Below, one piece after another: positions 30,874 through 36,445 of a DNA stretch of 49,465 nt (positions are counted from its first letter, which is position 1; every line of letters starts with the position of its first letter). This DNA is from an uncultured Acinetobacter sp. Its GTDB lineage: Bacteria; Cyanobacteriota; Vampirovibrionia; Gastranaerophilales; Gastranaerophilaceae. A program made the translations under genes and the position numbers. Under the pieces are notes generated by a model. It saw only the letters and a list, made by a program, of their open reading frames with translations. It had not been told where the DNA came from and made no database searches. The DNA lies in contig CAMZGT010000009.1 of NCBI GenBank assembly GCA_947306495.1, positions 1 through 49,465 of the forward strand, in the 5' to 3' direction.

Positions 30874-31941
30874 CTAGCTTTCCAAAATCGTTTCGCAAAT
30901 ATTAGTTTGAGGTGTATAATCATATTCTTCCACATCAGAATTTTTGATTAAATCAGAACGTTTTTTGCGGAACAGCATATCAATAAAAGCTTCCAATCTT
31001 GTGATAAAACCGGCTTCTCCTGTTTGCTCATCAATAGTAAGAACAAGAAGAGGTTTGTTAGCTTCTTTTGCTTTTCTTGTGATTCTTTCAACCATCAACG
31101 AATCAGGTCCGCAGCCAAAAGCGTTTATTGTAATAAGTCCGTCAATGTTGTTATCTTTAAGATAATGTCCGGCTGTTCCGGTCATTTCATGTTCATTTGC
31201 CCAGTACCGTTTTTGACCTAATGCTGCAATCCCTTCGGCCATTTGTTCATCCGTAAGTCGTAGTGATGTAAATACTTTTACATCCATATTTTCAAGTTTG
31301 TCAAAAATTTTCATTGTGGCACGTTCGTCATACATATTGTAGCCGTGTGAAATCAGCGCAACATTAATCGGAGCGGTTTTGGTATTTTCTTCAATAAAAA
31401 TTTTTCCTTCTAAAGCATATTTCATAGCCTTTTTATAACTCATACCCGAACGAGCCATGACAAGAAAATTATTGTATACTCTCCAACCTTGCTTGGAAGC
31501 TTTTTTGATTTCGTCCTTATTTGTTATACCGAAATCTTTTACCGATTCAGCTAAAAACTCATATAAACCTTGATTTTTTGCAGATTTATCAAGTGTCGGT
31601 TCTATAATGTTAACATCTTCTTTTATGACATTTCTTACTAAATCAGGCAGCCCTCTTATTTTTGAGCAATTGTATATTTTTGGCGCAATAGATTGCAGTG
31701 AGGGAACATAAATATTTTTAACCCCTTTTTGTATTAGGTTTAAAATATGACCCAGATATATTTTTATCGGTAAACAAGTTTCAGTAACAACCAGCGCTGC
31801 ACCATCTGACATAGTTTGTTTTGTTGTAGGGTCAGAAAGTACTATTTTTACCCCCAATGCAGTAAAAAACCCATACCAGAACGGATAGTTGTTATAAAAA
31901 GACATTCCTCTCGGAATTCCTATTGTCATATCTTTAGTCAT
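30874..31941 (-). CDS. Acyl-CoA dehydratase activase-related protein (DUF2229-like)
   Basis: A 355-residue protein of the family linked to 2-hydroxyacyl-CoA dehydratase activators. It has IGIPRGMSFYNNYPFWYGFF at the N-terminus, TETCLPIKIYLGH, and INAFGCGPDSLMVERI with LTIDEQTGEAGFITRLEAF at the C-terminus. It lacks the ASKHA ATPase activator half found in large fused versions, so it is the stand-alone DUF2229 part. Cysteines in TETCLP and FGCGPDS may hold an iron-sulfur cluster. The reaction is unknown; the family is typical of anaerobes. Confidence 0.8.
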   Translation of the reverse strand: MTKDMTIGIPRGMSFYNNYPFWYGFFTALGVKIVLSDPTTKQTMSDGAALVVTETCLPIKIYLGHILNLIQKGVKNIYVPSLQSIAPKIYNCSKIRGLPDLVRNVIKEDVNIIEPTLDKSAKNQGLYEFLAESVKDFGITNKDEIKKASKQGWRVYNNFLVMARSGMSYKKAMKYALEGKIFIEENTKTAPINVALISHGYNMYDERATMKIFDKLENMDVKVFTSLRLTDEQMAEGIAALGQKRYWANEHEMTGTAGHYLKDNNIDGLITINAFGCGPDSLMVERITRKAKEANKPLLVLTIDEQTGEAGFITRLEAFIDMLFRKKRSDLIKNSDVEEYDYTPQTNICETILES

Positions 31942-32083
31942 AGAATATCCCTTTTTGCTTGTATTTCAATATAATACTAGCGCAAAAAGACAATATTGTC
32001 ACATTTTTCGGTAAACAAAGTTTACAAAGCGCACTATCCGGAGGATATTTTGTAAAGAATTGTAACAATTTCGTTAAAAATCC

Positions 32084-32110
32084 TAAAGTTTTAAAAAATT
32101 ATGCCGATAT
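32084..32110 (+). promoter_or_regulatory. Sigma-28/sigma-D (FliA-type) promoter
   Basis: TAAAGTTT (32084-32091), 11 bases, then GCCGATAT (32103-32110). This differs by one base from the enterobacterial sigma-28 consensus TAAAGTTT-N11-GCCGATAA. It also fits the Bacillus sigma-D consensus TAAA-N14-16-GCCGATAT exactly (15-base spacing). It lies about 47 bases before the ATG of the 500-residue protein. Confidence 0.8.
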
Positions 32111-32156
32111 ACAGAGTATAGAAATTAAATAAAAAAGGAAAAAGGAGAATACCGTC

Positions 32157-33659
32157 ATGGGTATGGCAGCATCACAAGCAAGGTATCTTGCATTAGTTGA
32201 AAGGAATAATGACCTTGAGTACCAAGGCCAACAGATTAACCAACAAAGGACGACTTTGTCCGACCAAGTCAATGCTTTGTATAACAGTTTGCTTGTTATG
32301 AACGTGCCAACACCTCCGTCAACAGCAGATTATACGAAAGTCGTTTATTCTGGAGCATTAGGTTCATCAACTTTCAGTATTGGTAATATTACTCCGGTCG
32401 GAACAGAGTACAATGTAACTCTAAACTATAAAAAAACCGGTCACTATGTAGAAGCTGCAGGTACTACCGCTATTGTAGCAGCTGAGCCGAAGATTAAATT
32501 GGCAAAATTAGAAGAGAACAATTATAAAGAACCTGATATCACAGGATATAAATGCGGAGAGGCATATAATGATAGTAGTAACTGGACATCCTTTATGCAA
32601 CGAACAGATGGCAAAAGTGTTACGAGTGGCAAATACTACACACTTGCGAATGGGATTTTTACTGAACATGATTATATTCAAACTCATCCGGCTAATGATG
32701 CAGTAGTATATGTTATAGCAAATGGTGCCCCTAAAGAAGGTGATTATTCATACGTAGATTTTGATAATAACAATCAAGCTGACACCATAACAGGAGCATA
32801 CAAAGCAATATCAGGTCAGCCGTCAGATTATTACATTATAGAAAATGGTACATCAAGACAAGCAACAGCAAATGACTTTGATGAAATAAAAGGCAAGTAT
32901 TATTTCAAAAATTTAAATAGCAGTGCTTCTTACGCGAAAGCAGATGCTAACGGTAATGATGGAGAAATTGCTAACCCATATTACGATGTGGATCGACCTG
33001 CAACTGTTAAAGGTGCTAATGTTATGACATTAGATCAGGCAAAAAAAGAAAATAGAATTAGTGAAGAAACTTTAGATAATTACAAGCAAGCATTATTCAA
33101 TGCACATCCTGAATTAGGTAAATCCGTCGATGAAGTTGCTGACAAGTTCTATATCTATTACACTTCCGAAAACGGAGCTAATGTCCCGCATTTCATACTT
33201 AAAACAGATGTTACAATGGGTTTAACTGATGAAAATAAAACAAGCTGGGCAGAGTATTCCGATTTTATGGCTAATGGTAAATATACAGAAGCAAAAGAAG
33301 AAAAAGGCTGTAAATTGGAATTTGATGCAGACGGAAGAATCTCTGCAATATCTATTCCGATAACAACTGCTGATGGTAATATATCATATAAAACAGTTCG
33401 ATTGGAAGCAGCTACGGTTACTGATGATAAAGCATACGAAGATGCATACAATCAATATGAATATCAAAAGCATTTATATGACCAAGAACAAAACGAAATA
33501 AACGCTAAAACCTCTGTTATTCAAGCTCAAGATAAAAAATTAGAGCTAAAATTGACAAGACTTGATAACGAAAGAAAAGCTATACAGGCTGAGTTGGAAG
33601 CTATCAAAAAAGTAATCGGTGAAAATATTGACAAAGGTTTTAAAACATTCTCAGGCTAA
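32157..33659 (+). CDS. Unknown protein with helical ends and beta-rich centre, sigma-28 driven
   Basis: A 500-residue protein of unrecognised named family. The N-terminal ~50 residues (MGMAASQARYLALVERNNDLEYQ..., then a Gln-rich helix) and the C-terminal ~75 residues (heptad-rich, ending NIDKGFKTFSG) are helical and coiled-coil-like. The middle (about 55-430) is Gly/Asn/Tyr/Asp-rich and looks like beta structure. There is no Sec signal peptide. AAGGAG precedes the ATG. Helical termini, variable beta centre and a sigma-28 promoter together recall flagellin and hook-type axial proteins, but there is no direct family match. Confidence 0.7.
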   Translation: MGMAASQARYLALVERNNDLEYQGQQINQQRTTLSDQVNALYNSLLVMNVPTPPSTADYTKVVYSGALGSSTFSIGNITPVGTEYNVTLNYKKTGHYVEAAGTTAIVAAEPKIKLAKLEENNYKEPDITGYKCGEAYNDSSNWTSFMQRTDGKSVTSGKYYTLANGIFTEHDYIQTHPANDAVVYVIANGAPKEGDYSYVDFDNNNQADTITGAYKAISGQPSDYYIIENGTSRQATANDFDEIKGKYYFKNLNSSASYAKADANGNDGEIANPYYDVDRPATVKGANVMTLDQAKKENRISEETLDNYKQALFNAHPELGKSVDEVADKFYIYYTSENGANVPHFILKTDVTMGLTDENKTSWAEYSDFMANGKYTEAKEEKGCKLEFDADGRISAISIPITTADGNISYKTVRLEAATVTDDKAYEDAYNQYEYQKHLYDQEQNEINAKTSVIQAQDKKLELKLTRLDNERKAIQAELEAIKKVIGENIDKGFKTFSG

Positions 33660-33775
33660 CAACTCTGGGATAAATGTAATCTGGCTTGCATTGCTACTGC
33701 CAAATTTACGTCACTTTGAGCCCCAACAACAATTCAGGGAATTAAGAATCTCATAATACTTTTAAAACTCCAGTC

Positions 33776-36445
33776 CTAGTTCTCTTTCCAAGAAGTGCCG
33801 TAGTTTATATCGACTTCCAACGGAACTTTTAAAGGCTGGCCTAACTCCATGGCATCCTTAACCAACACTTTTAGCGATTCCAATTCTTCTTTCGGAAGTT
33901 CAAACACAAGTTCATCATGCACTTGCATAATCATTTTAGATTTTAAGCCCTGTTCTTTAAGCTGTTTATCAACATCTATCATAGCAAGCTTTATCAAATC
34001 CGCTGCAGAGCCCTGTAAAGGTTGATTTATTGCAGCACGCTGCGCAAATTCCCGTATTTGAAAATTAGGACTCATTAATTCTGTCGACAGATACCGCTTT
34101 CTGCCAAGTAGAGTTTCAACATACCCATATTCATTTGCAAATTCCTTTTTAGAATTCATATACTCCAGAACTTTCGGATAGCTTACAAAATATTTGTCTA
34201 TAAAATCTTGAGCTTCACTGTTCGTAATTCCCAACGCCTTAGCAAGTCCCCAACGTGACTGTCCATATACAATACCAAAATTTACAGCCTTAGCCTTCCT
34301 GCGCATTTCTTTCGTTACTTCTTCTGGCTTTACACCAAAAACCTTTGCAGCAGTAACCGTATGAACATCTTCACCTGTTTTAAAAGCATTTATCAAATGT
34401 TCATCGCCGGAAATATGCGCCAAAAGTCTTAACTCTATCTGAGAATAATCTGCACTCAAAATCAAAGATTTTTCTTTATCCGATGCACAAAATGCAGCTC
34501 TGATTTTATTTCCTTCTTCCGTCCTTATCGGAATGTTCTGCAAATTCGGATTTGAAGATGATAATCTACCGGTTACAGCCAACGCTTGGTTATAAGTTGT
34601 ATGAATTCTTCCGTCTTTCTTGCTGATTAAAGCGGGAAGTGCATCTGTATATGTTGATTTTAGTTTAGAAAACTTTCTGTGCTCCAAAATATATTCACAA
34701 ATTTCATACTCTTGCGCCAGTTCCTCCAATACTTCCGCACCGGTTGAACGTGAACGCTTTTTCTTCCCCTTAAGCTCAAGCTTATCAAACAAAATTTCCG
34801 CAACTTGTTTCGGTGAATTTATATTAAAAGATTCACCCGCAAGTTGGTATATAAGATCTTCAAGCTCCGCAAGCTTTTCTGTCAAATAAGATGAAAGCTC
34901 TTTCAAATACTCAACATCAACAGAAACCCCCACGTGTTCCATTTTGGCAAGTACCAATGTTAATGGCATTTCTATTTCTTTTACAATTTTTTGTTCATCA
35001 TCTTCCAAATTATCTTGCCAATATTTATATAATTTCAAAACTGTATTAGCTTCGTCGCAAACCAATTTTTCATCGGTTGTATCTGAAAGTATATGATTTA
35101 GAAAATCTAGCGCTTGAGCCTCAATAGTATGTTTTCTGTTCGGATCTTTTACATAACTTGCAAGCAAAACATCATAATCCAACCCTGCCGGAGTAAAACC
35201 GTTGTTCAATAAAAGATGATAATCCGATTTTAAATCAAAACCCACCTTTTTTATATAATCCGACTCTATAATCGGACGAAGAGATTCCAAATAACTTGAA
35301 TCAAAATATCTTGTTTTACCGTCAGAGATTGCAACACCTTGTATTTCACCGTCCCTTACCAAATAACGAACACCAATTCTATTTGAACTCATAAGTTCTT
35401 CTATTACTGATGCGTTTTTTACAACTTCATACTCAAAATCAGCATCATTAATGTTCTCTTTTATGCTCTGTGTAAATAGGTTTTGCTGGACAACGTCGCC
35501 GCTTGTTTGCATATTTTGGCAGAATAAATTATGCTCTTCTTTCTGAGACTGAGAATTAAATGAAGACATAATTTTATCAATATTTTTTATGAATGTATAA
35601 AATTGCATCCTCTTTAAAAACTCTGATACTTTATTTAAGGCAGGTAAAGTAACAGATGCCGTCTTTATATCAAAATTTACATCTACATCTCTGACTATAG
35701 TTGCCAAATCCTTCGAAAGAATTGCAATTTCTTTACCTTCACAAAGTTTTTGCTTGACTGCTTTTTCCGGAATGTTTTCACAATCCGCTAAAACAGCCTC
35801 TAAATTCGGGTATCTGTTTAAAAGTTTTTGAGCAGTTTTTTCTCCTATACCTCTTACTCCAGGTATATTGTCTGAAGTATCACCTCTCAAACCCTTATAA
35901 TCAGTTATTTGATTAGGATAAACTCCAAGTTTTTCATAAACCTTATCCCAATCATACTCAATTAATTCACCCTTAGAAGGTATTAAAACCTTTACAGAGC
36001 CTTCTCTATCAATTAATTGAAAGCTATCTTGATCCCCTGTTAAAATAAGAGTTTGATGCCCTGCCTCCGATGCAATACGTGAAATTGTTCCTATCACATC
36101 ATCCGCTTCAAACCCTTCTTTTGTATATATAGGAATATCAAAGGCTTGCAAACCTTCACAAATCAAACCTATTTGACTTCTTAATGTATCAGGCATCGCC
36201 TCGCGTTGTGCTTTATATTCTTCAAACTTTTCAACACGGAATGTCTGTCTGCCCACATCAAAAGCTACTGCTATGTAATCAGGTTTTATTCTCCCCAACA
36301 AATCAAAAATAGCTTTAAAAAAACCGTAAATTGCCCAAGTAGGCTGATTTTCGGAGTTTTTCATATTAGTTCTCTCTAATGCAAAAAACTGCCTGAAAGC
36401 CAGTGCGTGACCGTCTATTAATATTAAAGTCTTTTTATCTGACAT
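33776..36445 (-). CDS. polA: DNA polymerase I
   Basis: An 889-residue family A polymerase for Okazaki processing and repair. The 5'-3' exonuclease domain (about 1-300) starts LILIDGHALAFRQFF and contains the DADD-type acids. The polymerase domain has DYSQIELRLLAHISGD, the O-helix region RRKAKAVNFGIVYGQS and VHDELVFE. The middle 3'-5' exonuclease domain seems degenerate: the expected DxE is replaced by VRYLVRDG. Proofreading is therefore probably lost, as in many bacterial Pol I enzymes. Confidence 0.95.
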   Translation of the reverse strand: MSDKKTLILIDGHALAFRQFFALERTNMKNSENQPTWAIYGFFKAIFDLLGRIKPDYIAVAFDVGRQTFRVEKFEEYKAQREAMPDTLRSQIGLICEGLQAFDIPIYTKEGFEADDVIGTISRIASEAGHQTLILTGDQDSFQLIDREGSVKVLIPSKGELIEYDWDKVYEKLGVYPNQITDYKGLRGDTSDNIPGVRGIGEKTAQKLLNRYPNLEAVLADCENIPEKAVKQKLCEGKEIAILSKDLATIVRDVDVNFDIKTASVTLPALNKVSEFLKRMQFYTFIKNIDKIMSSFNSQSQKEEHNLFCQNMQTSGDVVQQNLFTQSIKENINDADFEYEVVKNASVIEELMSSNRIGVRYLVRDGEIQGVAISDGKTRYFDSSYLESLRPIIESDYIKKVGFDLKSDYHLLLNNGFTPAGLDYDVLLASYVKDPNRKHTIEAQALDFLNHILSDTTDEKLVCDEANTVLKLYKYWQDNLEDDEQKIVKEIEMPLTLVLAKMEHVGVSVDVEYLKELSSYLTEKLAELEDLIYQLAGESFNINSPKQVAEILFDKLELKGKKKRSRSTGAEVLEELAQEYEICEYILEHRKFSKLKSTYTDALPALISKKDGRIHTTYNQALAVTGRLSSSNPNLQNIPIRTEEGNKIRAAFCASDKEKSLILSADYSQIELRLLAHISGDEHLINAFKTGEDVHTVTAAKVFGVKPEEVTKEMRRKAKAVNFGIVYGQSRWGLAKALGITNSEAQDFIDKYFVSYPKVLEYMNSKKEFANEYGYVETLLGRKRYLSTELMSPNFQIREFAQRAAINQPLQGSAADLIKLAMIDVDKQLKEQGLKSKMIMQVHDELVFELPKEELESLKVLVKDAMELGQPLKVPLEVDINYGTSWKEN

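Follow-up and report, generated by a model that had tools for sequence, protein, structure and literature searches.

A promoter of the sigma-28 (FliA) type precedes the gene for a 500-residue protein, here called P0001, on a contig of an uncultured bacterium of the order Gastranaerophilales (assembly GCA_947306495.1, contig CAMZGT010000009.1; the 49,465 nucleotides of this contig are the window analyzed here). That the element is a genuine sigma-28 promoter transcribing the 500-aa gene is near certain, and that it is read by the genome's own FliA is strongly supported, with FliA binding itself predicted from the DNA. We further think it probable that FliA in this way drives the gene of P0001, and that the protein serves a second export machine, derived from the flagellum, as an axial-type subunit or a substrate. 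We infer the protein's role, export, assembly and function from the distribution of its family, the linkage of its paralogs, co-regulation and predicted layout.

The promoter and its sigma factor

On the + strand, positions 32084-32110 consist of TAAAGTTT (32084-32091), 11 spacer nucleotides and GCCGATAT (32103-32110), which differ at one position from the enterobacterial consensus and at none from the Bacillus form. These elements, of the TAAA / N15 / GCCGATA type, are spaced from the gene as a promoter would be: GCCGATA is separated from the ATG at 32157 by 47 nt, and transcription is predicted to start at about 32117. The full motif TAAAGTTTN10-12GCCGATAW has a single match in the window, and 100 shuffles gave none. 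The near-perfect site reported by the first-pass annotation, its uniqueness within the window, and the well-placed AAGGAG and ATG behind it all hold. A loose form, TAAAGN12-17GCCGWW, finds the same single place in the window but has at least one match in 39 of 100 shuffles, and the signal is therefore carried by the full motif. A consensus scan of 31900-33800 returned nine sigma-70-like sites against 7.8 expected, among them a weak one (9/12) at 32021-32049 on the + strand, upstream of the sigma-28 site.

The site is conserved before relatives of the gene. We analyzed 80 loci with P0001 relatives, from records labelled Gastranaerophilales, Cyanobacteria, Melainabacteria or merely bacterium, treating matches of at least 200 BLAST bits as full-length and ortholog-like and requiring at least 160 nt of upstream DNA, which left 89 starts (the start at L089 was excluded, its upstream DNA being too short). 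A site was present upstream of all 30 ortholog-like starts and of 28 of the 59 remaining ones, which belong to relatives below the ortholog threshold, compared with 2 of 256 other genes of the same loci and 4 of 8900 Markov sequences; within 130 nt upstream, pooling all starts, it was found at 51 of 89. Among the 30 orthologs the spacer measures 11 nt in 28 and 12 nt in two, and the -10 element is GCCGTAAT in 19, GCCGATAT in four, GCCGTTAT in four, GTCGATAT in two and GCCGTAAA in one. The variation among GCCGTAAT, GCCGATAT and GCCGTTAT (upstream regions of L075-L121) may reflect a shift in FliA specificity.

The genome to which the window belongs (G000; 1.65 Mb in 60 contigs, numbered with the prefix C) encodes a suitable sigma factor. 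A search for fliA/sigD, as suggested with the first-pass annotation, which would have been refuted by the lack of such a gene, recovered a single FliA/WhiG match over curated cut-off (C30:14025-14687) among eight sigma-like matches, which scored 223.2 bits with TIGR02479 (cut-off 189.6) and 209.6 with the NCBI FliA model NF005413 (cut-off 201) and also matched solved FliA structures. The accompanying search for flagellar genes recovered six Flagellin_N matches, including a FlgL-like gene that follows flgK, together with three FlhA-type matches, FlgN, FlgK, FliG and a FliI-type ATPase; a FlhB-type protein scores below both curated cut-offs. One set is canonical, with FlhA1 at 851.6 bits (TIGR01398 cut-off 772.1), FliF1 at 254.1 bits (TIGR00206 cut-off 129.75) and FliG over the cut-off of the flagellar model. 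As to FlgM, the anti-sigma partner of FliA, a 94-aa open reading frame (ORF) before flgN had no family match, a genome search with the FlgM model not having been made. Another contig (L061:6602-8068, on C48) encodes a 488-aa protein that matches the later half of FlhA models only.

Genome-wide, TAAA-N14-16-GCCGATA matches 32 times against 4 for the reversed pattern, and TAAAGTTT-N10-12-GCCGWWA 33 times against 0, a large site set of the kind the earlier annotation had proposed to look for. An ORF led by a Shine-Dalgarno sequence begins 15-140 nt downstream of 18 of 30 sites, compared with 391 of 6000 positions drawn at random from these loci; the count used 30 of the 32 sites, two being without a locus, and kept both C7:55864 and C20:28, which are alike and lie at contig ends. 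In a Pfam scan of 15 products behind sites, two exceeded the cut-off, one as FliE of a second flagellum-like set and one with a calpain-type protease domain; the other 13 had no Pfam family over cut-off, and 14 of the 15 had no flagellar family match. Of the flagellin genes on C37, C5 and C13 (the Flagellin_N matches on C26 and C54, at contig ends, were left out of this check), the one on C37 has a near-consensus site with two mismatches, while no sigma-28 site was found upstream of those on C5 and C13, of flgK or of the flgL-like gene. Because these genes lack a site, and because 91 genomes of the order have no Flagellin_N match, a purely motility regulon is not favoured.

Several loci behind such sites are recorded here in their own right. 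On C25 (L073:1142-3535) a site lies 68 nt before the gene for the 797-aa protein with the calpain-type domain (E 3.8e-8), among neighbouring ORFs that look phage-like by eye. On C26 (L063:2930-5921) two adjacent genes, each with its own sigma-28 site, encode products of 498 and 456 aa that are alike by eye and have no Pfam family. Proteins of 57 and 63 aa, again alike by eye, lie behind sites in G000 and in the flagellin-less genome G040 (L011 and L181).

A second flagellum-like gene set across the order

We surveyed 146 genomes of the order Gastranaerophilales, searching Flagellin_N at E 0.001. FliA exceeded its cut-off in 142; the exceptions (G017, G020, G026 and G028) are 66-88% complete, have Flagellin_N and contain weaker FliA matches. 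Flagellin_N was found in 55 genomes, and each of the 91 without a match encodes FliA over cut-off. These 91 genomes hold 447 sites against 45 for the reversed pattern, with a site in 89 and a reversed match in 36. The nine genomes of P0001's own genus hold 240 against 4, and the remaining 46 genomes with flagellin 186 against 16; the median there is 1, and the exact motif is therefore not used by every lineage.

FlhA is present in all 146 genomes and falls into two score classes. Among the matches listed, 52 genomes, each also carrying Flagellin_N, have a strong-class FlhA (E < 1e-240), which none of the 91 Flagellin_N-less genomes has. In 89 of those 91 a full-length FlhA of the weaker class is present, the best FlhA-type matches of the remaining two (G045 and G122) being near 1e-48 only. 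G009, G020 and G095 have Flagellin_N without the strong class. Flg_bb_rod was detected in 144 of 146 genomes, missing in G079 and G110, both flagellin-less, and the idea that rod proteins are absent from flagellin-less genomes was thereby ruled out; matches are generally more numerous and stronger in flagellin-bearing genomes. In the flagellin-less G018, four genes for rod or rod-like proteins are found at a distance of about 4 kb from fliA.

In G000, C5:17622-23678 encodes FliE, FliF, a 344-aa protein, FliH and FlhA, a second set that we denote FliE2-FliF2-FliH2-FlhA2. FliE2 passes the FliE model (56.4 bits; TIGR00205 cut-off 30). FlhA2 and FliF2 resemble the injectisome proteins SctV and SctJ in matching those models at lower score, but lie under the cut-offs of the flagellar and injectisome models alike: FlhA2 reaches 700.4 of 772.1 bits for canonical FlhA (TIGR01398) and 587.3 of 692.25 for SctV (TIGR01399), in a comparison that covered the FlhA copies of G000, and FliF2 reaches 111 of 129.75 bits for canonical FliF (TIGR00206). 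The five-gene set recurs, as judged by size, order and N-termini, in the flagellin-less genomes G044, G018, G060, G085, G110 and G107, its gene families having been scanned in G044 and G018; in G050 four of the five genes are called, with an antisense ORF at the place of fliE. The 344-aa protein (L055:11786-12820) takes the place of FliG and has no meaningful family match; similar-sized genes with like starts are seen in relatives.

Genes of the P0001 family lie close to this set in part of the genomes. In at least 11 (G000, G041, G044, G049, G050, G060, G061, G063, G065, G085 and G134) a near-full-length family gene is found 6-11 kb from the weaker-class flhA on the same contig, and in G000 a distance of 7.5 kb separates flhA2 from the P0001 paralog at C5:31151. 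Reading these neighbourhoods in G044, G050, G060 and G085, we found near the second set of each a block in which an MGMAASQAR gene is accompanied by three others, encoding about 272, 90 and 107 aa. The 90-aa gene is preceded by a site in G050, G060, G061 (L183) and the G000 copy (C4:39511-43074, site 42186), and none was seen before it in the G044 and G085 blocks; the G000 block adjoins the canonical fliFGHI genes, not flhA2. In the flagellin-less G040, G050 and G061, which together have 33 sites, 30 of them with loci, six of the 30 loci lead directly into MGxAxSQAR genes.

The first-pass annotation had tied P0001 to a motility or late-assembly regulon. The motility half of that claim fares poorly, given the unmarked flagellin, flgK and flgL-like genes, the single flagellar product among those scanned, the retention of FliA in the 91 Flagellin_N-less genomes and the P0001-family genes behind sites in three that were examined; a late-assembly or export regulon of the second flagellum-like machine fits better.

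The P0001 protein and its family

P0001 has no Pfam family at E 0.001, Flagellin_N and Flagellin_C included, and a PDB sequence search with its profile returned nothing meaningful. Its relatives number 2116 among 8000 scored candidates, and two alignments were made, A1 with 72 of 119 listed homologs besides P0001 (whole query covered) and A2 with 44 of 120. The AlphaFold2 model (pLDDT 88) shows a helix at each terminus with a beta-rich region between them, which looks like the layout of flagellar axial proteins such as flagellin and hook protein, whose terminal helices likewise enclose a variable beta-rich middle; P0001 is unlike flagellin in lacking the sequence matches. The nine best Foldseek matches of the model are flagellar filament or cap entries, all of them weak. 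Every one of the 146 genomes surveyed has a match to the family profile, and the full-length form (profile E < 1e-130) is confined, among the matches listed, to its own genus, in 7 of 9 genomes, all nine of which have Flagellin_N. For a candidate mini member of the family (the C4:42742 type) the prediction is a hairpin of two helices and nothing more; hhalign against P0001 gave a probability of 10 over the C-terminal 37 columns only, and Foldseek returned assorted hairpins, including the IpaB coiled coil, none with E <0.001.

Elsewhere in the window, the divergent neighbour (30874-31941, minus strand) matches the Pfam families DUF2229 and HGD-D. The earlier statement that no flagellar gene is visible in the window holds for the 7 of 46 listed ORFs that were scanned with Pfam.

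Table 1. Positions of the promoter, the ribosome-binding site and the P0001 gene with its predicted parts.
Feature	Position	Strand	Basis
sigma-28 (FliA)-type promoter	32084..32110	+	sequence; kept upstream of 30/30 full-length orthologs
ribosome-binding site AAGGAG	32142..32147	+	sequence; 9 nt 5' of ATG 32157
P0001, 500 aa, MGxAxSQAR family	32157..33659	+	no Pfam/NCBIfam family over cut-off
conserved N-terminal helix, residues 2-47	32160..32297	+	AlphaFold2 model; conservation
variable middle, mostly beta-strand, residues 60-422	32334..33422	+	AlphaFold2 model
conserved C-terminal helix, residues 424-499	33426..33653	+	AlphaFold2 model; conservation

Alternative explanations and significance

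In the scheme that we favour, the genome's FliA would read the promoter and transcribe the P0001 gene, and P0001 would be exported, either to become an axial-type subunit (of needle, filament or tip) or as a late substrate. The exporter would be the flagellum-derived type III machine FliE2-FliF2-FliH2-FlhA2, retained in relatives without detectable flagellin, so that FliA would turn on late genes as it does in the flagellum, but for a second machine and its cargo. A broader proposal, which we advance more tentatively, is that this order of non-photosynthetic gut cyanobacteria may keep FliA not for motility but for a rod-bearing, filament-less export machine, with the MGxAxSQAR proteins as its surface subunits or cargo.

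P0001 might instead belong to the flagellum or to motility proper, as a minor filament or cap protein would, and be made for the organism's own flagellum through the FliA promoter. The genome does have Flagellin_N genes, canonical FlhA, FlgN, FlgK, a FlgL-like gene and FliG, the modelled layout is flagellin-like, and full-length P0001 keeps to a genus in which every genome has Flagellin_N; yet the wider family extends to all the genomes surveyed, including the 91 in which Flagellin_N was not detected, some family genes lie near the second flhA, and the organism's own flgK, flgL-like gene and two of three checked flagellins lack the site, and we regard this explanation as unlikely. That FliA controls secreted proteins directed at a host or at neighbours, with P0001 as cargo and not a structural part, would suit the many scanned products without a Pfam family and the one with a protease domain, but conserved helices at both ends suit a subunit better, as does the hairpin predicted for the possible mini relative, a relationship that is itself tentative, and this too seems to us unlikely, slightly more so than the first. 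A chance resemblance to sigma-28 sites, for which one could cite the frequency of the loose pattern in shuffled windows and the weak sigma-70-like site upstream, is very improbable in view of the strong genome-wide excess, and it was rejected on the full-motif shuffles and the conservation at every ortholog.

FliA-family sigma factors are found in bacteria without flagella, as sigma-28 in Chlamydia and WhiG in Streptomyces. The flagellin-less Gastranaerophilales resemble these in retaining such a factor without a flagellum and differ in that the factor is accompanied by a conserved set of genes for flagellum-like export and by a family of axial-like proteins. Class-3 flagellar promoters read by FliA/SigD agree with the sites described here in sequence and spacing, and in both cases the genome encodes a member of the FliA family; here, however, 14 of the 15 scanned products match no flagellar family, and sites are also kept where Flagellin_N has no match. 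In the available portions of two earlier reports, incomplete flagellar sets in Melainabacteria MEL.A1 and Gastranaerophilales are taken as loss or ongoing reduction (PMC3787301, PMC4040986). Our genomes likewise miss part of the flagellar set, but compared with those portions the remaining set is order-wide in the sample of 146, accompanied by FliA and the weaker FlhA class, and linked in part of the genomes to the P0001 family. Within the main text available, the word 'sigma' is absent from PMC4040986 and PMC5877343 and 'sigma factor' from PMC3787301; a partial literature search found no work joining Melainabacteria and FliA, and novelty in print is not established.

Together, these results connect a large, unnamed protein family with a regulator and probably also with a machine, and offer a testable reason for the presence of FliA in gut cyanobacteria in which flagellin is not detected. 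Provided that the machine exports proteins, it would be a candidate route for action on hosts or neighbours, and the findings bear on the divergence of flagella and injectisomes. Should the proposal of a filament-less export machine be true, what has been presumed to be flagellar decay would represent a further type III branch beside flagella and injectisomes.
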